DNA of 64,000 nt, taken from contig AP026073.1 in assembly GCA_024349765.1 (NCBI GenBank), positions 7,254,001-7,318,000 on the forward strand, in the 5' to 3' direction. Origin of the DNA: Streptomyces nigrescens (GTDB taxonomy: Bacteria > Actinomycetota > Actinomycetes > Streptomycetales > Streptomycetaceae). The translations under genes and the position numbers were made by a program. Positions 22,792 to 33,709 of the stretch are shown here, piece after piece (within the stretch, counting starts at the first letter, position 1; every line of letters begins with the position of its first letter). The notes below the pieces were generated by a model, which searched no databases, had not been told where the DNA came from, and saw only the letters and a list, made by a program, of their open reading frames with translations.

Positions 22792-22877
22792 CTCGGACCA
22801 GCCCCTTTCGCCACCACACACCTGCGTGGGGGACACTTAATCACCAGACGTATGTGTTGATCATGGAGGAGCCACCC

Positions 22878-23369
22878 GTGGAGTTCGACGTCACCATCGA
22901 GATCCCGAAGGGTTCGCGGAACAAGTACGAGGTGGACCACGAGACCGGTCGGATCCGCCTGGACCGTCGACTCTTCACCTCGACCAGCTACCCGGCGGAC
23001 TACGGCTTTGTCGAGAACACCCTGGGCGAGGACGGCGACCCGCTGGACGCCCTGGTCATCCTGGATGAGCCGACCTTCCCCGGCTGCCTCATCAAGTGCC
23101 GCGCCATCGGCATGTTCCGGATGACGGACGAGGCCGGCGGCGACGACAAGCTGCTGTGCGTCCCGGCGTCCGACCCGCGCGTGGAGCACCTGCGTGACAT
23201 CCACCACGTGTCGGAGTTCGACCGCCTGGAGATCCAGCACTTCTTCGAGGTCTACAAGGACCTGGAGCCGGGCAAGTCCGTCGAGGGCGCCAACTGGGTC
23301 GGCCGCGCGGAGGCCGAGGCCGAGATCGAGGCCTCGTACAAGCGCGCCGAGGCGCACGGCGGGCACTGA
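22878..23369 (+). CDS. ppa: Inorganic pyrophosphatase (family I)
   Basis: Hydrolyses pyrophosphate released by biosynthesis. It is 163 aa, with the signature [11 protein letters not shown] (metal-binding Asp residues) and the substrate region [23 protein letters not shown] 22878 is fixed by the ribosome site GGAGGAG 6 nt before it; the upstream ATG 22863 would sit on top of that site. It is divergent from dacB and followed by two hairpins before the RiPP cluster. Confidence 0.96.
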
Positions 23370-23785
23370 TCGAAGCACCCGGGCGCAGGTCGGCGCCCGG
23401 TGAATTTCGTACGCGAACGGGCGGCATCCAACCGGGTGCCGCCCTTCGTCCGTTTGTGCCGGGGGTTTGTGCCGGCCGGTGTGCGTGGCGACGCGCGGAG
23501 AAATTCCCGTTCTCCGGTAAAAAGCGGGAAGCAATGAGTAAAGTTTGCGTGCGGCGCCCGGCTGCTCCGTGATCATCGCCAAATAAGCGGCAGATAAATT
23601 AACTTACGGCGGCCCCGCATAGGCCCCGCCTATTCCGCGCACCGCGCTCCCGGCGGCCAATTAACCCCTAAGTTGACAGCGCGCGGCGATGCTAGCTTCG
23701 CCACCTTGACGAGAGCACCCCAATAGGCAAGGCGGTTCTCCGGGTCACGCACCGCGTGACCGTCGTCAAAGCGGGGGGAGCACTC
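23370..23785. other. Boundary between core genes and the RiPP cluster, with a possible promoter
   Basis: It is 416 bp and clearly less GC-rich than its surroundings after position 23500, as often at insertion borders. TTGACA at 23673-23678 with TAGCTT at 23693-23698 is promoter-like, but the 14-nt spacer is short. No gene was seen. Confidence 0.45.
23379..23444 (+). terminator. Two consecutive hairpins after ppa
   Basis: CCGGGCGC/GCGCCCGG (23379-23400, 6-nt loop) is followed by GGGCGGCA/TGCCGCCC (23419-23444). Together they should isolate ppa from the cluster downstream. Confidence 0.65.
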
Positions 23786-25729
23786 ATGGCACATCGCGTG
23801 GGCCGCGCAAGCCAGAGGGGCAGGACCACACGCGCGGGACTGGTCGCCACGGTCTTCAGACAGCACACCGCGCTGCTGGTCGCGGGCGTGGCACTGGGCC
23901 TGGCGGGGGTGGCCGCCTCGCTCACCCAGCCGGTGGCCATCGGCCGGCTGATCGAGGCGGCGGGCCGCGGCGAATCGCTGGGCGCCCCCATCACCTGGCT
24001 CGTCTCGCTTTTCTGCGCCGGCGCGCTGCTCACCTCTCTCCAGGCCTACGTCATCGGCCGGGCCGGGGAGAACATCGTCTTCGACGTCCGCCGGCTCCTG
24101 ACCGAACGTCTGCTGCGCGCCGATCTCACCGCATTCGGGAAACGGCCGCAGGGCGATATCTTCACCCGCACGGTCACCGATACCTCTCTGGTGAAGATCG
24201 CCCTTTCGCAGAGCCTGACCCAGCTGATCACCAGTGGCGTCACGGTGCTGGGCGGCGTGGTGCTGATGTTCTGCATCGACGCGGGGCTGATGGTCATCAC
24301 CCTGGGCTGTCTCGGCGCCGCCAGCGTGGTCTCCCTGCTGCTCGCCCGGAAGCTGCGCAAGGTGGCGCTGGAGAACCGCGACGACATCGGCGCGTTCGGC
24401 ACCGCCGTCCAGCGCGTGCTCTCCGCCCTGCCCACGGTCAAGGCGTCCCGCGCCGAGTCCCGTGAGGCCGACCGCATCGGCGCGCTGGCCGGGAACGCCC
24501 GGCGGTCCGGCATCCGGGGCACCGCCTACGGCGCCCTGCTGACGCCGTCCATGAACGTGGGCACGCAGGGCGCGCTGGCCGTCGTCGTCGGGGTGGGCAT
24601 GGCCTGGGTGGCCCGCGGCGAGATGACCATGGCCGCCCTGACCACGTTCATCATGTACCTGTTCCAGCTGGTGTCCCCGCTGGTGATGTTCTTCATGGCG
24701 GTCGGCCAGTTCGTCCAGGGCCGGGCCGCCATCCAGAAGGTCGACGAGCTGGCCGACATGCCCCAGGAGGGCGGCGGGACGGCGGACGCCGGGCGCGCCG
24801 CGCCGATGGTGCTGGCGGCCCACGGCCGGGCGGCGGTCGAGTTCCGCGACGTCCGCTTCGGCTACGAGCGCGGGGACCAGGGCGAGCGGTCCCCGGTCCT
24901 GCACGGCGTCTCGTTCCACGTCCCGGCGCGCGGACTCACCGCCGTCGTCGGACCGTCCGGCGCGGGCAAGACCACCCTGTTCCAGCTGATCGAACGCTTC
25001 TATCCGGCCAGCGGCGGCAGCATCCTGGTCGGCGGCCGGAACATCGAGGCGCTGCCCCTCGACGCCCTGCGCGGGCTGGTCGGTTACGTCCAGCAGGACA
25101 GCGCTGCGCTGCGCGGCACCGTCCGGGAGAACCTCACCTACGCCAGCCCCGACGCCGGCGAGGACGACATCCGGCAGGCGGTGGAGATGGCCGGGCTCGC
25201 CAAGGTCGTGGCCAAGCTCCCGCAAGGTCTCGACACCGAACTCGGCGACCAGGGCAGCGGATTGTCCGGCGGCCAGCGCCAACGCCTGTGCATCGCCCGC
25301 ACGTTGCTGCAGAAGCCGGCGGTCATGCTGCTGGACGAGGCCACCTCCCACCTCGACTCCGACTCCGAGCGGGACTTCCGCGACGTCCTGCAGCGGGTCT
25401 CCCGGCACTGCGCGGTCATCGCCATCGCCCACCGGATCTCCACGGTGATCGACGCCGAGCAGATCGTGGTGCTGGAGGACGGCCGGGTCCGGGCCACCGG
25501 CCGGCACCAGGACCTGATGACCCGCGATGCGCTCTACCGGCGACTGGCCGGCTCCCAGCTGCACGCCGACTCCGGCGGCCGCGCCCCCGCCCGGGTCCCG
25601 GACCGCAACCACCCCCGCGACTCGGAGACGACGCTCTCCCTCTCCCTGGCCTTCGGCGGGCTCCCGCCGGCCACCCTCAACGAACAGACCATCCGGCTCC
25701 GGCCCATCAGGAGCGAGGAGCAGTGGTGA
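23786..25729 (+). CDS. ABC exporter, fused membrane and ATPase domains (LinT-like)
   Basis: Half-transporter of the MsbA/lantibiotic-exporter type, 647 aa. About six transmembrane helices (to about residue 330) precede the ATPase, with Walker A GPSGAGKTT (about 390), signature LSGGQRQRL (about 493), Walker B AVMLLDEATSHLDS and H-loop IAHR. ATG 23786 follows GGGGGGAG. It is the first gene of the putative linaridin operon and the likely peptide exporter. Unusual is a tail of about 50 residues after the ATPase containing TTLSLSLAFGGLPPATLNEQ. The stop overlaps the next start. Confidence 0.92.
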   Translation: MAHRVGRASQRGRTTRAGLVATVFRQHTALLVAGVALGLAGVAASLTQPVAIGRLIEAAGRGESLGAPITWLVSLFCAGALLTSLQAYVIGRAGENIVFDVRRLLTERLLRADLTAFGKRPQGDIFTRTVTDTSLVKIALSQSLTQLITSGVTVLGGVVLMFCIDAGLMVITLGCLGAASVVSLLLARKLRKVALENRDDIGAFGTAVQRVLSALPTVKASRAESREADRIGALAGNARRSGIRGTAYGALLTPSMNVGTQGALAVVVGVGMAWVARGEMTMAALTTFIMYLFQLVSPLVMFFMAVGQFVQGRAAIQKVDELADMPQEGGGTADAGRAAPMVLAAHGRAAVEFRDVRFGYERGDQGERSPVLHGVSFHVPARGLTAVVGPSGAGKTTLFQLIERFYPASGGSILVGGRNIEALPLDALRGLVGYVQQDSAALRGTVRENLTYASPDAGEDDIRQAVEMAGLAKVVAKLPQGLDTELGDQGSGLSGGQRQRLCIARTLLQKPAVMLLDEATSHLDSDSERDFRDVLQRVSRHCAVIAIAHRISTVIDAEQIVVLEDGRVRATGRHQDLMTRDALYRRLAGSQLHADSGGRAPARVPDRNHPRDSETTLSLSLAFGGLPPATLNEQTIRLRPIRSEEQW

Positions 25730-27210
25730 ACGGCACCGACGTGGCCGTCGTGGGCACCGGCCCCAACGGACTCGCGGCCGGCGTGGTCCTGGCCCGCGCC
25801 GGCCTGCGGGTGGCGCTGTACGAACGGGCCGAGACCATCGGCGGCGGGCTGCGCACCGCGCCCCTCTTCGACAGCGGCGTGCCGCACGACCTCTGCTCCG
25901 CCGTCCACCCCATGGCCGCCGCCTCCCCGTTCTTCCGGGCGTTCGGCCTGGCGGAGCGCGGTGTCGAGCTGCTGCAGCCCGAGATCGCCTACGCCCATCC
26001 GCTCGACGGCGGCCGCGCGGCCCTGGCGTACCGGTCGCTGGCCGAGACCTGCGCGCACCTGGGCGCCGACGGCCCGCGCTGGCGGCGGCTGATGGAGCCC
26101 CTGCTGGAGCACAGCGACGGCATCGTCGACCTGGTCATGAACGGGCAGCGCCGGCTGCCCGGGGACCCCGCGGCAGCCCTGCTGCTGGCGAGCCGGGTGG
26201 CGGTGCACGGCACCGGGCTCGGCGCGGCGCACTTCGCCGGCGAGGAGGCGGCCGCCCTGCTCACCGGTGTCGCCGCCCATGCGGTCGGCAAGCTGCCGAG
26301 CCTCGCGGGCGGCGCGGTGGCCATGCTGCTCGGCCACCTCGCGCACGGCACGGGCTGGCCGCTGCCCCGCGGCGGCAGCGCCCGGATCGCCGAGGTGCTG
26401 GCCGCGGACATCACCGCGCACGGCGGTGTCTTCCACACCGGGCACGAGGTGACGGACCTGGACCAACTCGGCGGCGCGCGGGCGGTGTTGCTCGACACCA
26501 GCCCCAAGAACTTCCTGGCGCTCGCCGGCGACCGGCTGCCCCGCCCGTACGCGCGCGGCCTGGCGCGGTTCCGTTACGGCCCGGGCGCCGCCAAGGTCGA
26601 CTTCCTGGTCTCCGAGCCGATCCCCTGGACCGATCCCGCGGTCGGCCGGGCCGGGTCGGTGCACCTGGGCGGCACCCGCGCCGAGATCGTCCGGCAGGAG
26701 ACGGCGACCGCCCGCCGGATCCGGACCCGGGAGCCCTTCGTCCTGGTCGTGGACCCGGCGGCGACCGATCCGGGTCGCGCGCTGCCCGGGAAGCGCCCGG
26801 TGTGGGCGTACGCGCACGTGCCGAACGGCGATCCCACCGACCCGTTCGAGCTGGTGCGGGCCCGCATCGAGCGCTACGCCCCGGGTTTCGGGGACACCGT
26901 CCTCGCGCACCGGTCCGTCGCCGCCGCGTCGTACGAGACCTACAACCCCAATTACGTGGGCGGGGACATCGGCACCGGCGCGATGACGCTGTACCAGAGC
27001 ATCGCCCGGCCCGTGCCGCGCCTCGATCCCTACCGCACGCCGCTGCCCGGCGTCTTCCTGTGTTCCTCGGCCACCCCGCCGGGGCCCGGCGTGCACGGCA
27101 TGTCCGGCTATTTCGCGGCGCTCTCGGCGCTCCGGCATTGTTTCGGTATACGCACCGCAGCCGACGTGTCACTCTCGCCGACACCGCGTCAATTCAGCCC
27201 TGCCAACTAA
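25726..27210 (+). CDS. FAD-dependent phytoene desaturase-like oxidoreductase (LinE-like)
   Basis: A 494-aa flavoprotein of the phytoene-desaturase/carotenoid-isomerase group. The FAD motif VAVVGTGPNGLAAG is at residues 6-19, followed by ERAETIGGG, and a C-terminal FAD segment FLCSSATPPGPGVHGMSGY is present. GTG 25726 overlaps the transporter stop as GTGA, so the two are coupled; GTG 25723 is an alternative. Enzymes of this type (LinE) occur in many linaridin clusters, where their exact reaction was unclear to my knowledge. It may oxidise or isomerise the modified peptide. Confidence 0.9.
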   Translation: MNGTDVAVVGTGPNGLAAGVVLARAGLRVALYERAETIGGGLRTAPLFDSGVPHDLCSAVHPMAAASPFFRAFGLAERGVELLQPEIAYAHPLDGGRAALAYRSLAETCAHLGADGPRWRRLMEPLLEHSDGIVDLVMNGQRRLPGDPAAALLLASRVAVHGTGLGAAHFAGEEAAALLTGVAAHAVGKLPSLAGGAVAMLLGHLAHGTGWPLPRGGSARIAEVLAADITAHGGVFHTGHEVTDLDQLGGARAVLLDTSPKNFLALAGDRLPRPYARGLARFRYGPGAAKVDFLVSEPIPWTDPAVGRAGSVHLGGTRAEIVRQETATARRIRTREPFVLVVDPAATDPGRALPGKRPVWAYAHVPNGDPTDPFELVRARIERYAPGFGDTVLAHRSVAAASYETYNPNYVGGDIGTGAMTLYQSIARPVPRLDPYRTPLPGVFLCSSATPPGPGVHGMSGYFAALSALRHCFGIRTAADVSLSPTPRQFSPAN

Positions 27211-27520
27211 TGCAGGAACACTCATCTGTTTCGGCGTCAACCAATCCCAACCGGACCTGGAGGCATGGAGATTGAGCCAGATAATCGATTGCGGGCCCGC
27301 TGACGTGGCTGATATCGTTCGTTCTAAAGTTACTCCCCCCACACTTCGTTGAGACGTCATCGCGGGATCGACCACAGCTGCTGGTCTGACCAACCACGCA
27401 GCCGGCCGCGGTTCTCCCGTACGGCCACCCGTTGGTGACGTATCGCGCCTTGCCTCGCTCTTCGTCTTCTTGACGTTCCCCGGGCATCGACAGTGGGGGC
27501 AGAAGAGAGGGGAAACACGG
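27211..27520. other. Gap inside the cluster, no supported gene
   Basis: It is 310 bp and relatively AT-rich in the middle. A 21-codon frame starts on an ATG overlapping the previous stop (TAATG at 27208) but has no ribosome site. A second cluster promoter may lie here, for example near TTGACG at 27471, but I cannot support it firmly. Confidence 0.4.
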
Positions 27521-28282
27521 GTGGAAAATGGAGTCCAGGACATAGGCTACGGACGCCAGTTCGCCGGCTGGTACGACCGACTGCTTCCGGACGACGCGAT
27601 TACCGCCGCCGCCGTCGAGGGGCTGGCGGCCCTCCATCCCGATCCCGAGGGGGGAACCCTCGAGTTCGGCGTCGGAACGGGACGGATTGCCCTCCCGCTC
27701 TCCGAAAAGATCGGCCACATAACGGGCGTGGACTCCTCGCCGGAGATGCTGGACGCGCTCCGCGTCAAGCTGACGGACGGCGCCGGCGACGTCACCCCGG
27801 TACACGGCGACATCCGCACCTACACCTCGGAATCCCGTTACTCCCTGGTGTATTGCGTCTGCGCGACGCTTTCGGTGCTCACCACTCCCGAGGACCAGCA
27901 GCAGGCCGTCCGACGCGCGGCCGACCTCCTCGCCCCCGGCGGCCGGCTCGTCATCGAGACGCACAACAAGCCGCCGGTCGTGGCCCTGCACGAAGGCCTC
28001 AGCCGCACCACCTACTTCATGCCCCACCCGGAGCCCGGCAGCGGCGTACAGACCCACTCCACCCTGCTCGACGGTGGTCTGTGGCACTGCTCCCACATCC
28101 TCTACCAGGCCGACGGCACCACCCGGGTCGGTTCCGAACTCACCCGGCTGACCACGCCGGAGGACATCGACGGCTACGCCCGCGCGGCCGGCCTCACGCC
28201 CGAATCCCATCTGGCGCACTGGGACGGCAGCCCCTACAGCGAACGCGCCCCGATGTTCATCTGCTGTTACGTCAAGCCCTGA
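27521..28282 (+). CDS. Class I SAM-dependent methyltransferase (LinM-like)
   Basis: A 253-aa methyltransferase with the SAM motif TLEFGVGTGRIALPL (about residues 46-60), acidic loop GVDSSPEMLDALR and a motif II region LVYCVCATLSVLT. GTG 27521 follows GAGAGGGG at about 9 nt. In linaridin clusters the equivalent enzyme (CypM type) dimethylates the alpha-amino group of the mature peptide, and that is the inferred role here. It is followed 40 bp later by the HTH gene. Confidence 0.88.
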   Translation: MENGVQDIGYGRQFAGWYDRLLPDDAITAAAVEGLAALHPDPEGGTLEFGVGTGRIALPLSEKIGHITGVDSSPEMLDALRVKLTDGAGDVTPVHGDIRTYTSESRYSLVYCVCATLSVLTTPEDQQQAVRRAADLLAPGGRLVIETHNKPPVVALHEGLSRTTYFMPHPEPGSGVQTHSTLLDGGLWHCSHILYQADGTTRVGSELTRLTTPEDIDGYARAAGLTPESHLAHWDGSPYSERAPMFICCYVKP

Positions 28283-28322
28283 GGGCAGCACCGAGAAAAC
28301 GGATGACGAAAGAGGGTCGCAC

Positions 28323-28670
28323 GTGGGACGTCCTCCGATATTGCCGGCCGACAAGAAATTCGCTCTCGTACTGAGAGTGGTGACCGGTGAACTGACCGCA
28401 GCAGAAGCAGCTCGCGAGGCCGGAGTCTCCGAGCAGTCCGTCTCGAACTGGCGCCGGCAGTTTATTGAGGGAGGCCGCAATGGCCTCGCCGGCGAGAGCG
28501 GCAAGACCTCCGAGAATGCCTCCCGGATAGCCGAACTCACCCAGGAGATCGCCAACCTGAAGGCCACGATAGGCGAGCTCTACATGGAACTCCGCAAGCA
28601 CAGCCGCGGCGCGGGCATCCGTGTTCCGCTGCCCCGCGGCAGGACTCACCCGGCACAAAGAGTCAATTAA
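28323..28670 (+). CDS. Transposase OrfA-like HTH protein, possible cluster regulator
   Basis: A 115-aa protein with a helix-turn-helix (ADKKFALVLRVVTGELTAAEAAREAGVS, about residues 9-36) and a coiled coil after residue 60 (IAELTQEIANLKATIGELY). This is the layout of OrfA of IS3-like elements and of related stand-alone HTH proteins. There is no orfB, no terminal repeats and no frameshift site next to it, and it has a good ribosome site (AGAGGG before GTG). It may be a transposon remnant or a domesticated regulator of the peptide cluster. Confidence 0.75.
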   Translation: MGRPPILPADKKFALVLRVVTGELTAAEAAREAGVSEQSVSNWRRQFIEGGRNGLAGESGKTSENASRIAELTQEIANLKATIGELYMELRKHSRGAGIRVPLPRGRTHPAQRVN

Positions 28671-28743
28671 CTCGTTATTTTATCCGGGAATCGCGTGTTA
28701 GGTTTTTCGGCAACAGCCACTTCGAATCACGGGGGAGGGGAAT

Positions 28744-29760
28744 GTGGCGTCTCTTGAGCGCCAATTCGCCGTCGGCCTGGCCGGTCTGGCCGGCGCGAGC
28801 CTGCTGACCGGCGCAGTAACGCGATTCACCGGTGGGCGCGAACGTGCGCGCCGCTACCTGCTGCACGAGAGGCCGGACGGCGGCCTCGTCGAGGTCGCCG
28901 TCCATATTCCTCCGCAGGCGCGGCGCGTCGTTCTGCTCGACAACGGCCTGGGCGCACCCCACGAATACTGGGACTGGGTGTGCGACGCACTTCCCGACGA
29001 CATGGGATACGTGCGGTTCAACCGTCCCGGCTACGGGCTCAGCACGCCGGTCACGCAATACGGTCTGCACCGGCACTTCGAGCTGTTGCAGGAATTGCGC
29101 GACACCTACATCGCCGACCTCCCGGTCGTCCTGGCGGGCCATTCCCTGGGCGGGTACTTCGTCGCGGCCTACGCGTCGCGGCATCCGGGCGCGCTGAAGG
29201 GCGTGACCGCGGTGGTCATGATCGACGCCACCGAAGTGATCAGCCTGCGCCACTCCCGCCGTACCAACGTCGACCGGTGGGCCCGCCAGTCGCTGGTGAT
29301 GGAGCAGGTCTACGCCTGGGCCGGCCTCTCGGCCTTCCGCCCGGCGAAGAACGTGAACAAGCAGTACCGCCCGCAGATCAACCGGAGCTACACGGCGTTC
29401 ATGACGCACCCGCGCGCCTGGGCCACCGCCCGCCAGGAGTACCTGGACGCCATGACGTTCCCCGAACTGACCGACCTGGACTGCCCGTTGACCGTCGTCA
29501 CCGCGGAGAACAACGTCGGGGACAACGCCACCCACCACGCGGTCCAGGCCAGGCTCGCCGCCATCTCGAAGCGGTCCCGGCACCACTTCATCGACGGCTC
29601 GGACCACGAGTCCGTGCTCGCGGTGCCGGCCCACGCCGCACAGGTGGCGGAGGTGATCGCCGGCGAACCGCCCTCCGGGACCGGCCCGGAGCGGGAGAAG
29701 TCCGTCAAGGACCGCCCGGCCGGCAGGCGTGCCGCGGAACGGGAAGAGGAGCTGGCGTGA
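28744..29760 (+). CDS. Alpha/beta hydrolase, probable leader peptidase (LinP-like)
   Basis: A 338-aa alpha/beta hydrolase with an N-terminal hydrophobic segment (FAVGLAGLAGASLLTGAV). The oxyanion region is LLDNGLGAPHEYWDW, the nucleophile elbow is AGHSLGGYF and the catalytic His is in DGSDHESV. GTG 28744 has GGGGGAGGGG in front. Linaridin clusters encode a hydrolase of this fold (CypP/LinP type), proposed to remove the leader peptide. The last 45 residues are charged and probably disordered. Its stop overlaps the next start as GTGA. Confidence 0.88.
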   Translation: MASLERQFAVGLAGLAGASLLTGAVTRFTGGRERARRYLLHERPDGGLVEVAVHIPPQARRVVLLDNGLGAPHEYWDWVCDALPDDMGYVRFNRPGYGLSTPVTQYGLHRHFELLQELRDTYIADLPVVLAGHSLGGYFVAAYASRHPGALKGVTAVVMIDATEVISLRHSRRTNVDRWARQSLVMEQVYAWAGLSAFRPAKNVNKQYRPQINRSYTAFMTHPRAWATARQEYLDAMTFPELTDLDCPLTVVTAENNVGDNATHHAVQARLAAISKRSRHHFIDGSDHESVLAVPAHAAQVAEVIAGEPPSGTGPEREKSVKDRPAGRRAAEREEELA

Positions 29761-30353
29761 TCGTGAAGGTGAACACCGAGCGCGTGAAGACGGTCGCCGT
29801 CACCGCGTCGCTCGCCGCCTGGCTGGTGGCGACGGCGGCGGGGCAGCTGCCCGAGAACCGCTTCGACAACCTCCTGCGGCGCGGGAGGTGGCAGATACCG
29901 GTCCCGAACTGGCGCTTCTTCGGGCCGAACCCCGGAGTCAAGGACAACCACCTGCTCTACCGGGACATCGTCGACGGCGAGCCCGGTGAATGGGAGGAAG
30001 TGCCCATCACCCGCGACCGCCCGTGGTACGCCCTGGCCTGGAACGCCCGCAACCGCTCCCCGAAGGCCCTGTTCGACGCGAGCCAGGACACCATCGGCCG
30101 CTCGGTGGCCTTCGGACCGGAACTGCACCTCGTCACGCTGGGGTCCGGCTACCGCCTGCTCTCCCGCTACATCCAGCGCCATCTGCCCCATGCCGAGGGC
30201 GCCTCGCACAGCCAGTTCATGCTGATGCAGTCGTTCCTCAAGGCCCCCGGGGACCGGGAGATCGAGCCGGTCTTCGTCTCCCTGCAATTCCCGTTGAACG
30301 ACCACGCCAGTGACGCCACCCCTGAAGCGGCCGCGTTTCCCGTAGCGGCTTAG
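29757..30353 (+). CDS. LinL-like membrane-anchored protein of linaridin clusters
   Basis: A 198-aa protein with one N-terminal transmembrane helix (about residues 10-30: VAVTASLAAWLVATAAGQL) and a conserved block VPNWRFFGPNPGVKDNHLLYRD. That block is the kind that accompanies HTTM/DoxX-like membrane enzymes. In cypemycin-type clusters CypL pairs with CypH and both are required for maturation. Here LinL precedes the precursor and LinH follows it. GTG 29757 overlaps the hydrolase stop; GTG 29763 is also possible. Assignment is by size, topology and context. Confidence 0.75.
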   Translation: MIVKVNTERVKTVAVTASLAAWLVATAAGQLPENRFDNLLRRGRWQIPVPNWRFFGPNPGVKDNHLLYRDIVDGEPGEWEEVPITRDRPWYALAWNARNRSPKALFDASQDTIGRSVAFGPELHLVTLGSGYRLLSRYIQRHLPHAEGASHSQFMLMQSFLKAPGDREIEPVFVSLQFPLNDHASDATPEAAAFPVAA

Positions 30354-30482
30354 CGAGCCGATCAACCCCCTCGGCCGGAAGCTGCGAGCTCACTCGGAAG
30401 CCCCTGCACCGCGTGAGTTCGCGCCCTCCCGCCGAACGGCTGGAGAACTCGCTCTGAGATTTCTGAGAGAAAGAGGACAGTA

Positions 30483-30680
30483 ATGTCTGTTGTGGCTGAA
30501 TTCGCCAACACCAACCTGATGGACGTGCAGCCGGGCCGTATCGGCTCCGACGCCGCGCCGACCATGATGACCCCGCTGGCCACCGTCGCGACCCCCGAGG
30601 CCGTCTCCGCCGGCATCGCGGTCACCTGCGCCACCGCCATCGCGCTCAACCAGGTCACGCACAACGTCCAGCACGGCTGA
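30483..30680 (+). CDS. Linaridin precursor peptide
   Basis: A 65-aa peptide starting at ATG 30483 behind AGAGG. The leader has EFANTNL (residues 6-12), matching the FANTxL motif of the cypemycin leader, then the linaridin motif PxxxTP as PTMMTP (26-31). The rest, up to the end QVTHNVQHG, is rich in Thr, Ala and Val, suited to dehydrobutyrine formation. Cys49 is internal and there is no C-terminal Cys, so an aminovinyl-cysteine ring like that of cypemycin cannot form at the end. In CypA cleavage falls inside PxxxTP; here that would leave a core from about residue 29, which is a guess. Confidence 0.88.
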   Translation: MSVVAEFANTNLMDVQPGRIGSDAAPTMMTPLATVATPEAVSAGIAVTCATAIALNQVTHNVQHG

Positions 30681-30737
30681 GCCGACCGGCAGACGGTGCT
30701 GCCTGACCGGCACCGTTAGCCCCGGTTGATCAAAGAC

Positions 30738-30778
30738 GCGGCGGCACGGTACGCCCGATACGCATACCGTGCCGCCGC
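30738..30778 (+). terminator. Hairpin between precursor and LinH-like gene (attenuator)
   Basis: A 14-bp perfect stem, GCGGCGGCACGGTA with its complement at 30765-30778, and a 13-nt loop, starting 57 nt after the precursor stop and ending 46 nt before the next start. Partial termination here would let the precursor mRNA exceed that of the enzyme gene. Confidence 0.75.
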
Positions 30779-30824
30779 TTCCCATTCCACCGTACTCGCA
30801 TCACATCATCAGGAGCACCCATCC

Positions 30825-31703
30825 ATGTTCCTCGACGCTCCGCCCGAGGTCACGGCACGCCGAGTGGCTTCGCTGGGTACGCTGGTCTCCGCACTGGAAA
30901 TGCTGAGCCAGACGCGTAAGTTCGAAGACGGTGAATTGCTGAGCGGCCAACTGGCGAATATGCGCCCCAAGTTCGCCAAGCGATTTCCCCGGCTGACCCG
31001 CGCCCTCAGCTCCAAGAAGGCGGCGGTCGCCCTCTACGGAGTGCAGGCGGGTGCTTCTGCCGCCACGCTGATCTGGGGCCACAAGCGCGGGGTACGCACG
31101 GCGGGCAGCGCCGTCCTCGCCGTGACGGGCGCGGCCGGACGGCTGCACACCCCCTTCGGTGGTGACGGTGCCGACCAGCTCCAGCAGGTGATCAACGTCG
31201 TCCTCGCCTCGACCGGCACCTTCAAGGACGGTGAGAAGGCCCGCGACGTGGCCATGCGCGCCATGGCACTGGAGACGACCATCTCCTACGTCGCGTCCGG
31301 CGTGGTCAAGCTCGTGTCCCCGGTGTGGCTCAGCGGCGAGGCGTTCAGCGGAGTCATCCGTACGCACAACTACGGCGACCCGCGCATCTTCCAGCTCGTG
31401 CACAAGTACCCGATGCTGGGCAAGCTCATCACCTGGGGAACGGTCGCCGCGGAGGTCGGCTTCCCGCTGGTCTTCGTCCTGCCGAAGCCCGCGGCCAAGG
31501 CCTGGCTCGGCTCGATGACCCTCTTCCACCTGGGCATCGGGCAGTTCATGGGACTCAACCGCTTCGTGCTGGCCTTCGGCGCCACGCACCCGGCGCTCCT
31601 CTACGTCCTCGCGCAGAACGAGAAGCCCGCGCTCGCCGACGGCGCGAAGCGCGCCCTGGCCTGCGGCGCGAAGCGCGCACTGCCGGCCGCGAGCGCGGCC
31701 TGA
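30825..31703 (+). CDS. LinH-like (HTTM/DoxX-type) membrane protein
   Basis: A 292-aa membrane protein with several hydrophobic segments, including AALYGVQAGASAATLIWG-like and GTVAAEVGFPLVFVL, and the conserved-looking block VSPVWLSGEAFSGVIRTHNYGD. LinH-type proteins are the hallmark of linaridin clusters (CypH) and are needed for maturation together with CypL; later work linked them to D-residue formation, as I recall. The start ATG 30825 has AGGAG at 10 nt. The tail repeats GAKRALACGAKRAL. It is the last cluster gene, closed by the hairpin 31706-31734. Confidence 0.82.
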   Translation: MFLDAPPEVTARRVASLGTLVSALEMLSQTRKFEDGELLSGQLANMRPKFAKRFPRLTRALSSKKAAVALYGVQAGASAATLIWGHKRGVRTAGSAVLAVTGAAGRLHTPFGGDGADQLQQVINVVLASTGTFKDGEKARDVAMRAMALETTISYVASGVVKLVSPVWLSGEAFSGVIRTHNYGDPRIFQLVHKYPMLGKLITWGTVAAEVGFPLVFVLPKPAAKAWLGSMTLFHLGIGQFMGLNRFVLAFGATHPALLYVLAQNEKPALADGAKRALACGAKRALPAASAA

Positions 31704-31705
31704 CC

Positions 31706-31734
31706 GGGGAGACACCCCCAGGGGGTGTCTCCCC
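31706..31734. terminator. Terminator closing the RiPP cluster
   Basis: GGGGAGACACCCC pairs with GGGGTGTCTCCCC with a 3-nt loop, directly after the LinH-like stop (31703). It also faces the end of the convergent exporter gene. Confidence 0.85.
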
Positions 31735-31767: not shown

Positions 31768-33546
31768 CTAGAACCCGCGGGTCCGCTTGGCCGCGCGGCG
31801 GCCGGCGCCCGCCTCCAGCAACCCGGGCGCCCGCAGGAACAGCCGGGCGACCTCGGAACCGAGGTTGACCCCCACCGCGATGGCCAGCGCCAGCGAGGCC
31901 GCCTGCACCAACGACGTCAGCCCCTGCGGCAGATGCCCCTGGGCGAAGTTGAGCAGCCCGAAGTACGTGGCACTACCGGGCAGCAGCGGACCGATCGCGG
32001 CGGTCACGTACGGCAGCGCGGACGCGTACCGGTACCGCGACAGCAACTGCCCGAACAGGCCCACCAGACCGGCCGCGATCGCGGTGGCCGGCACCGGGTT
32101 GATCCCCGCGACGTTGGCGAGCGCGCCGTAGACCACCCACGCCACCCCGCCGTTCAGCGTCGCGAACGCCACGGTGTGACGTTCCTGCTGGAGCAGCACG
32201 CAGAACGCCAGCGCCAGCAGCATCGACGCCAGCGTCTGCACCAGCGGCTCGTTGTACGCCCCCAGCGCCTGCTCCGGATTGAGCCGCTTCAGGCCCGGGT
32301 TCACCTGCAACCCGATGTACAGCACGCTCAGCACGCCGACGACGATGCCGACGATCAGATAGCCGACCTCCAGCAGCCGGGCCGCGGCGGTGATGTAGTA
32401 GCCGGTCAGCCCGTCGTGCACCCCGGCGACCAGCGCCCGCCCCGGGATCAGCGCGAACAGCCCACCGGTGATCACCGCGGACGCCTGCACGCTGGAGTGC
32501 GCCAGCCCGAAGGCCAGACCCACCGCCGCCGGCGGCATCGCGGCCACCACGAACTGGTAGAACTCCGGCAGCCCCCGCCCGGACGCCAGCCACGCCAGCC
32601 GGTCACCGAGCATCGAGCCCACCGCCGCCGCGAGGAACACCAGCGACCCGCCGCCGACCAGCATCGACGCCGCACCGGACAGCAGCCCGGAGGCCACCGT
32701 CAGCGCCCAGCTCGGGTACGGGTGCCGGTTACGGCGGATCTCGGCCAGCCCGCGGTACGCCTCCTCCAGGGTGATCCCCTCGGAGGCGATCTCGTCGACC
32801 AGCCGGAACACCGCGGACAACCGGTTGTAGTCCACCCCGCGCCGCCGCACCGTCCGGCTGGCCGTCACCGGGTCGTCGACCAGCGACGGCTGGTACGAGA
32901 TCGACAGCAGGGTGAAGGTGACGGTCGGCTCGACCCGCTCCAGCCCGTAGGCGTGCGCCACGCCGAACATCGCCGCCTCGACGTCCTCGGCGCCCTCACC
33001 GCCGGCGAGCAGGATCTCGCCGATGCGCAGGGTCAGGTCGAGGACGCGGGGGACGGCCGGCCCGGTCTCCTCGTCGCCGCGCTCCCGGCGCTCGGGGACC
33101 GGCCGCTCCCCGACCGGCATCCGCAGCATCGTGCGCATCCGGTCCTGCCACGGCGCCTCCTTGGTGAGGCGGACCGTGGGGATGCCGTGCGGCGGGGTGA
33201 AGGCCAGGCCCATGGCGGTCGCGCCCACGGGCGTCGGGAGCGGGGTCTGGCCCGTGGTGGTGCCGGCCGGCGGCGTGAACGCGGAGCCCTCCTGCTCGGC
33301 GGGCGGCTCCGGGCGCAGCCCCGCCGGCAGGGCGAACTCCGAGGTGGGGTGCTCGTCCTCGGGCAGCGGCGGGTACGGCACGCCGAGCGGCGGCGTGAAG
33401 GCGCTGTGCGCCTCGTCGGAGGCCGGCTTGCGCTCCTCACCCGCCGCCTCGTGGCCCGCGCCGCCCCTGCCGCCGCGGGGGCCTCCGTCGCTGTCGCCGC
33501 TCTTTCCGTTGCTGTTGCGCTGGCCGCGTTGTGGGTCCGACGCCAC
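31768..33546 (-). CDS. Threonine/serine exporter family protein (ThrE)
   Basis: A 592-aa member of the ThrE/ThrE-2 family of amino-acid exporters. The cytoplasmic region before the membrane part (about residues 160-290) has the family block RIGEILLAGGEGAEDVEAAM. About ten transmembrane helices follow. The N-terminal 150 residues are a Pro/Gly-rich disordered region with three AFTPP repeats. GTG 33546 has AGGAGGAG at 8 nt. It is convergent with the RiPP cluster and lies behind DedA with a terminator between. Confidence 0.88.
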   Translation of the reverse strand: MASDPQRGQRNSNGKSGDSDGGPRGGRGGAGHEAAGEERKPASDEAHSAFTPPLGVPYPPLPEDEHPTSEFALPAGLRPEPPAEQEGSAFTPPAGTTTGQTPLPTPVGATAMGLAFTPPHGIPTVRLTKEAPWQDRMRTMLRMPVGERPVPERRERGDEETGPAVPRVLDLTLRIGEILLAGGEGAEDVEAAMFGVAHAYGLERVEPTVTFTLLSISYQPSLVDDPVTASRTVRRRGVDYNRLSAVFRLVDEIASEGITLEEAYRGLAEIRRNRHPYPSWALTVASGLLSGAASMLVGGGSLVFLAAAVGSMLGDRLAWLASGRGLPEFYQFVVAAMPPAAVGLAFGLAHSSVQASAVITGGLFALIPGRALVAGVHDGLTGYYITAAARLLEVGYLIVGIVVGVLSVLYIGLQVNPGLKRLNPEQALGAYNEPLVQTLASMLLALAFCVLLQQERHTVAFATLNGGVAWVVYGALANVAGINPVPATAIAAGLVGLFGQLLSRYRYASALPYVTAAIGPLLPGSATYFGLLNFAQGHLPQGLTSLVQAASLALAIAVGVNLGSEVARLFLRAPGLLEAGAGRRAAKRTRGF

Positions 33547-33709
33547 GGTGTTCGCTCCTCCTGTGCCGTATCGCTGCGCTGTGCCGAATCGCTGCACTGT
33601 GCCGCCTACCCACGATGCTTGCATGCCCGCCGTGCCTGTGGCGGGCGGGTCCGCGTACGCCGCCGGCCGACCCGCCGTGGTGGTTGGTCGGAAGCGAAGC
33701 CCACACACA

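Follow-up and report, generated by a model that had tools for sequence, protein, structure and literature searches.

The window, a 64,000-nucleotide stretch of the Streptomyces nigrescens genome, carries at positions 23786-31703 eight genes that sequence comparison confirmed as a linaridin cluster, a new orthologue of a known set and not a new class. A preliminary description of this DNA had proposed a linaridin biosynthetic cluster here, and the proposal was borne out by a match of the precursor to the linaridin family model NF033402, by a PxxxTP motif and by a gene order common to six other loci. As judged by homology, the cluster is very probably an orthologue of the Streptomyces noursei linaridin cluster and would make a dehydrated, N,N-dimethylated product of LinA. 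Two outcomes had been named as speaking against a linaridin assignment, searches without linaridin hits and the same genes dispersed in related genomes; both were looked for, and neither was found.

Gene layout

All eight genes are on the + strand, as first described. In order, they encode the transporter LinT, the FAD protein LinE, the methyltransferase LinM, a helix-turn-helix (HTH) protein, a hydrolase, LinL, the precursor LinA and an HTTM membrane protein. LinT (23786..25729) is an ABC transporter with membrane and ATPase domains and a putative export function (Pfam PF00664 and PF00005, in a scan run from an earlier start at 23756). The GTGA overlaps noted earlier between "several" genes are real, but there are only two, linT/linE at 25726 and hydrolase/linL at 29757. 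The terminator placed at the end of the cluster corresponds to a strong hairpin (31706..31734) that has no T run and is a terminator only in a loose sense. By fold analysis, another strong hairpin (30738..30778) lies between linA and the HTTM gene, in a segment (30681-30800) with a fold z-score of -5.86; perhaps it would keep expression of the precursor above that of the HTTM enzyme. A promoter scan found none.

Related loci and selection

A scan of species genomes found seven other Streptomyces loci (L007-L013) with a related precursor, 47-100% identical to that of the window: S. endophytica (100%), NRRL S-337 (97%), S. noursei (L009, 91%), S. inhibens (74%), S. scabichelini (66%), S. albospinus (L012, 66%) and S. 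hoynatensis (L013, 47%). All eight genes were present in the same order in six of the seven. In one of these six, S. albospinus, linM is degraded (L012:7100-7810) and the other seven genes still give long hits; the peptide of this species may lack N-methylation. In S. hoynatensis the set is rearranged; LinM and the HTH protein gave no hit there, and the only transporter is a distant one. As this set is incomplete, some parts of the cluster would not be obligatory.

The dN/dS comparisons covered L008-L011, with L007, L012 and L013 outside. All eight window genes were compared with L008, L009 and L010, with dN/dS values of 0.08-0.57. Against L011 (seven genes) it was 0.20-0.43, apart from 1.03 for linA, a very short gene and the one exception among 31 gene pairs, the other 30 being below 1. 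Conservation of the cluster is not due to chance, given the gene order in six loci and these values.

Pegvadin A was reportedly described from S. noursei (Georgiou, in 2020), and the S. noursei cluster of this group may be that of pegvadin A. The producer has the species name of L009, and the S. albospinus precursor carries the string PEGVA. We found no paper on pegvadin in the open-licence literature.

Insertion between ppa and thrE

The cluster lies, as first described, between two genes that both flank it, ppa (22854-23369; PF00719) and the gene for a ThrE-type exporter (31768-33708, minus strand; PF06738). The preliminary description had remarked that it looks inserted and had suggested a comparison of this interval across genomes. 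ThrE was found in 49 of the 61 genomes searched, and the loci of the 30 best matches were examined, 29 of them outside the own genome. In all 29, ppa adjoins thrE and no cluster gene occurs within flanks of 1.5 kb, the two genes being in tandem in 25 loci and convergent in four. Since ppa stands beside thrE in every one of these, the cluster sits in a normally short gap, and its insertion in the ppa-thrE region is supported by this comparison.

The orientation seen in the window is common to S. endophytica and NRRL S-337. The cluster is reversed within the same gap in S. noursei, S. inhibens and S. albospinus, and is on the far side of thrE in S. scabichelini. The ppa-thrE region is thus a local rearrangement spot, with the cluster in three arrangements. 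No ppa or thrE hit was found within the 20 kb surrounding the S. hoynatensis set. Between L011 and the window, thrE is only 67% identical and LinE 84%, which would fit transfer.

The changes of position among relatives, together with the degraded linM of S. albospinus, might be read as signs that the cluster is linaridin-derived but an inactive, decaying insertion. This is very improbable, because all eight reading frames of the window cluster are open and purifying selection is apparent from the dN/dS of 0.08-0.57 against L008-L010.

Precursor and core peptide

The precursor gene linA (30483..30680, + strand) encodes 65 amino acids. An HMM search for linaridin families, as suggested in the preliminary description, placed LinA far above the cut-off of NCBIfam NF033402, "linaridin family RiPP" (126.2 bits, E = 3.7e-37, cut-off 35). 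Residues 26-31 are PTMMTP and follow the PxxxTP pattern, the linaridin cleavage motif according to an excerpt of PMC9927463. The predicted core after PTMMTP is 34 residues long and includes Thr five times and Ser and Cys once each. Only four of 392 genomes of the genus, the own genome included, had a linaridin precursor over the cut-off (six at E 0.001), so that precursors of this kind are uncommon among the genomes sampled.

LinA ends in HNVQHG, in agreement with the earlier remark that it has no C-terminal Cys. The earlier description did not mention the internal Cys at core position 18. At this position the window, L007 and L008 have Cys, whereas L009-L011 have Ser and L012 has Ala. Where the Cys is present, it could form a lanthipeptide-like ring by addition to dehydrated Thr or Ser, and the product would not be a plain linear linaridin. 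We consider such a ring quite improbable: the Ser and Ala of the other loci indicate that Cys is not needed in this group, the Pfam scan of the eight proteins gave no lanthionine cyclase family, and in cypemycin Cys becomes dehydroalanine instead, through loss of sulphur, as stated in a section of PMC10880069. For the preferred linear linaridin with all Thr and Ser dehydrated and an N,N-dimethyl group, the predicted monoisotopic mass is 3247.69 with the Cys kept and 3213.71 with the Cys turned into dehydroalanine. A cypemycin-like conversion here, without CypD, would therefore make the product lighter by 33.99 Da. With Cys, Ser and Ala alternating at position 18, these loci lend themselves to testing whether sulphur is also removed from Cys by the dehydrating complex when CypD is absent.

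Methyltransferase, LinE and HTH protein

LinM (27521..28282, + strand) is a putative alpha-N-methyltransferase. It is 80.6% identical to YunM (PDB 7wzf), which in turn shares 98.8% identity with the LinM copy of S. noursei; the match to CypM (7wzg; 7.1e-08) was more distant. From this identity, YunM most probably belongs to the S. noursei linaridin cluster. An enzyme of this LinM group has thus already been studied, and the same two identities are the reason why we see no new class in the cluster.

LinE (25726..27210, + strand) is an FAD oxidoreductase of the CrtO/CrtI type (PF01593), far below the cut-offs of those models (including NF045689). It is 50-86% identical to eight others aligned, out of 10 rows found. 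The HTH protein (28323..28670, + strand) is of the IS3 OrfA type (PF13518, PF01527). It was found in six of the seven related loci, with a dN/dS of 0.08-0.20 in four pairs, and it is probably a regulator, perhaps a transposase part taken over for this role.

LinL and the two halves of LinH

The last gene (30825..31703, + strand) had been called LinH-like, which is half right: by homology to fused LinH, its product, an HTTM membrane protein, matches only the N-terminal half, and the hydrolase half is a separate gene. The protein described as an alpha/beta hydrolase (28744..29760, + strand) does have that fold (PF12697), but it corresponds to the C-terminal half of LinH. CypA-family precursors over the cut-off were found in three of 392 genomes (loci L079-L081). 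In these loci, HTTM and hydrolase form one protein of 579-584 amino acids, followed by LinL, whereas the window and L007-L012 have two genes for them, with linL-linA in between.

The window LinL, hydrolase and HTTM protein are homologous to proteins beside the CypA-family precursors, that is, of the cypemycin and grisemycin type (type A), in all three loci. LinL (29757..30353, + strand) shows 35-39% identity to LinL adjoining CypA-type precursors, with 39, 38 and 36% for the three genomes. All 31 hydrolase rows, that of the window among them, have Ser134, Asp161 and His288. Alignments A3, A4 and A5 have 20, 16 and 15 rows, counting the window, and draw on 38, 30 and 37 locus rows in which some genes occur twice; the residue check covered every row of the A4 and A5 sets. 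On plasmids, LinL was found in 14 records, all below 60% identity. Structure models were too poor for use (mean pLDDT 50.4 for LinL and 45.2 for the HTTM half), and a fold search with the LinL model gave no match at E 0.001 or better.

Some other loci hold more than one set or precursor. At L086:8460-19180, 11 kb hold two linaridin-type sets (LinL, HTTM, hydrolase and LinM) arranged back to back, LinH being fused in one of them and split in the other. Short precursor-like ORFs with P-V-M/L-A-TP motifs, three at L084:11600-12500 and two at L085:12300-12700, lie beside a single LinL/hydrolase/HTTM set.

Class of the linaridin

The window has a linaridin family precursor with PxxxTP, LinL beside the precursor, LinH as two genes and a homologue of alpha-N-methyltransferases. 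The lack of an aminovinyl-cysteine, as proposed earlier, was supported, since there is neither a C-terminal Cys nor a CypD-like gene nearby. In agreement with the earlier statement on the decarboxylase, the flavin decarboxylase family PF02441 is absent from the cluster, and the nearest of its six matches in the own genome is about 0.8 Mb away. In these respects, and in its split LinH, the window differs from type A.

The proposed placement among legonaridin-like linaridins holds in part. According to passages of PMC9927463, the type B linaridins legonaridin and corynaridin, like the window, have no decarboxylase and no C-terminal Cys, and corynaridin likewise has separate HTTM and hydrolase genes. 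The same passages give a short-chain oxidoreductase as typical of type B clusters, whereas Pfam found none among the eight window proteins, which include the CrtO/CrtI-like FAD protein instead; they also describe corynaridin without a methyltransferase, whereas the window has one. Because the short-chain oxidoreductase is missing from the eight proteins, we do not file the cluster as type B proper. On present comparisons its closest group is that of the S. noursei cluster, not legonaridin proper. The S. noursei cluster has the same eight genes in the same order, a precursor 91% identical and, in all probability, YunM as its counterpart of window LinM; it differs in its reversed orientation within the ppa-thrE gap and in Ser, not Cys, at core position 18.

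Proposed pathway

Gene content, homology, conservation, the motif and the insertion are seen in the sequences themselves; the product and every reaction step we infer as follows. LinA would be synthesised as a leader with a core of 34 residues. Thr and Ser would be dehydrated, and residues probably also epimerised, by a membrane complex that LinL forms with the two halves of LinH. The leader would then be cut after PTMMTP, LinM would place two methyl groups on the new N-terminus, and LinT would export the peptide. LinE would carry out an oxidation, and the HTH protein would regulate the cluster. An epimerase-dehydratase role has reportedly been given to GrmH/GrmL. In an excerpt of PMC10373908, grmL, the grisemycin counterpart, is described as indispensable and as encoding a possible new epimerase.

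Relatives of LinL and LinH outside linaridins

A LinL profile (20 rows) was run over 296 genomes of the phylum and gave eight matches in seven genomes. L097-L100 are LinL proper (L097 being the window), and L101-L104 are weak matches. All four weak matches adjoin an ORF matching the LinH-HTTM profile (9.7e-11 to 0.0022, the last in L104), and the two that were scanned, L103 and L104, are DUF5819 (PF19136; 4e-64 and 8e-62). LinL against these four DUF5819-type proteins scored 61.2 (P = 7e-9), compared with 21.9 for the best of 60 column shuffles, a score that is not independent, since it was the LinL profile that had selected the four proteins. SdpA loci were found in nine of 150 genomes of the genus, and all nine contain an ORF matching the LinH HTTM profile. 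The HTTM half of LinH matched SdpB and the DUF5819 partners equally well (both 98%, 1.5e-13), again with profile-picked sets, the SdpB set having been chosen by the LinH-HTTM profile. The gene neighbourhoods and Pfam names of the DUF5819 and SdpB sets are independent of the profile choice. In the own genome there are two DUF5819-HTTM gene pairs (7745312-7747152 and 5215187-5216694), distantly related to LinL-LinH, each DUF5819 gene having a match to PF05090 (HTTM) within about 1 kb, one of them under the cut-off.

SdpA against the DUF5819-type set scored 31.3 (P = 5.8e-4; best of 60 shuffles 17.6), and LinL combined with the DUF5819-type set scored 29.3 against SdpA (best of 60 shuffles 21.8). 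The kinship of SdpA with the DUF5819 type is suggestive. A direct LinL-SdpA profile match had a probability of 0.7%, lay within 40 shuffles and was not significant. When the LinL HMM was run over the ORFs of the SdpA loci, SdpA ORFs came top, but with E values of 0.13 and worse. The SdpAB and DUF5819-HTTM pairs resemble LinL-LinH in HTTM homology and in a small partner with a W-x-(F/L)F motif, although for SdpAB the direct match of the partners is the non-significant one above, and these pairs are not known to be accompanied by a linaridin precursor. From these profiles, LinL appears to be a remote relative of DUF5819, and the HTTM half appears similar to SdpB and to the HTTM partners of DUF5819. 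We found no paper on HTTM with SdpB, or on DUF5819, in the open-licence literature, and the one passage found there treats SdpA and linaridins apart.

The resemblance raises the question of whether the SdpB-like protein and LinL form a toxin/immunity set of the Sdp type and are not linaridin enzymes. The HTTM half does match TIGR04033 at 6e-4, but its score of 19.5 is far under the cut-off of 178.4, SdpA (TIGR04034) had no match in the own genome, and the precursor is a linaridin by NF033402; the probability of an Sdp-type set is negligible.

A conserved lysine in the HTTM half

Returning to the linaridin proteins, 36 of their 38 HTTM rows share Lys162 of the window HTTM protein; L038 and L042 have a gap there, and no other residue occurs. 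Lys162 aligns with a lysine that is invariant in 11 of 11 SdpB and DUF5819-partner proteins. The profile of these 11, a non-random choice made up of all four DUF5819 partners and of seven SdpB ORFs out of nine, matched human vitamin-K gamma-carboxylase at 2.3e-8; L092 and L095 were kept out because their open frames run far beyond the domain. Counted on the printed alignment, the conserved lysine stands opposite residue 218 of the carboxylase chain (758 residues). HTTM proteins have been regarded as a gamma-carboxylase superfamily. In PDB searches only the 11-row profile gave this link: neither of the two linaridin HTTM profiles hit the carboxylase by itself, and LinL, single DUF5819 and single HTTM proteins found no relative.

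Lys218 is described in an excerpt of PMC9146348 as the active-site base of the gamma-carboxylase, acting on vitamin K and not on the peptide, so that for linaridins we infer the chemistry by transfer. The alignment suggests that proton-abstraction base chemistry may lie behind linaridin dehydration or epimerisation. A wider and doubtful reading is that LinL/HTTM, DUF5819-HTTM and SdpA-SdpB would be branches of one widespread membrane module of two proteins for lysine-centred proton abstraction, which in linaridins would bring about dehydration and epimerisation, the SdpAB and DUF5819 pairs being peptide modifiers. We rate it lower because a section of PMC10880069 attributes the dehydro residues of cypemycin to kinases and lyases, through phosphorylation and elimination. 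No kinase was found among the eight cluster proteins by Pfam.

Taken as a cluster, it is an ordinary one, orthologous to a set for which a methyltransferase structure is already available. Lys162 gives a concrete residue to probe in enzymes whose mechanism is disputed between an epimerase (PMC10373908, in excerpt) and a kinase-lyase route (PMC10880069, in excerpt). If the shared-module reading were true, SdpAB and the DUF5819 pairs would have gone unrecognised as enzymes that modify peptides, and they might produce mass-silent D-residues.
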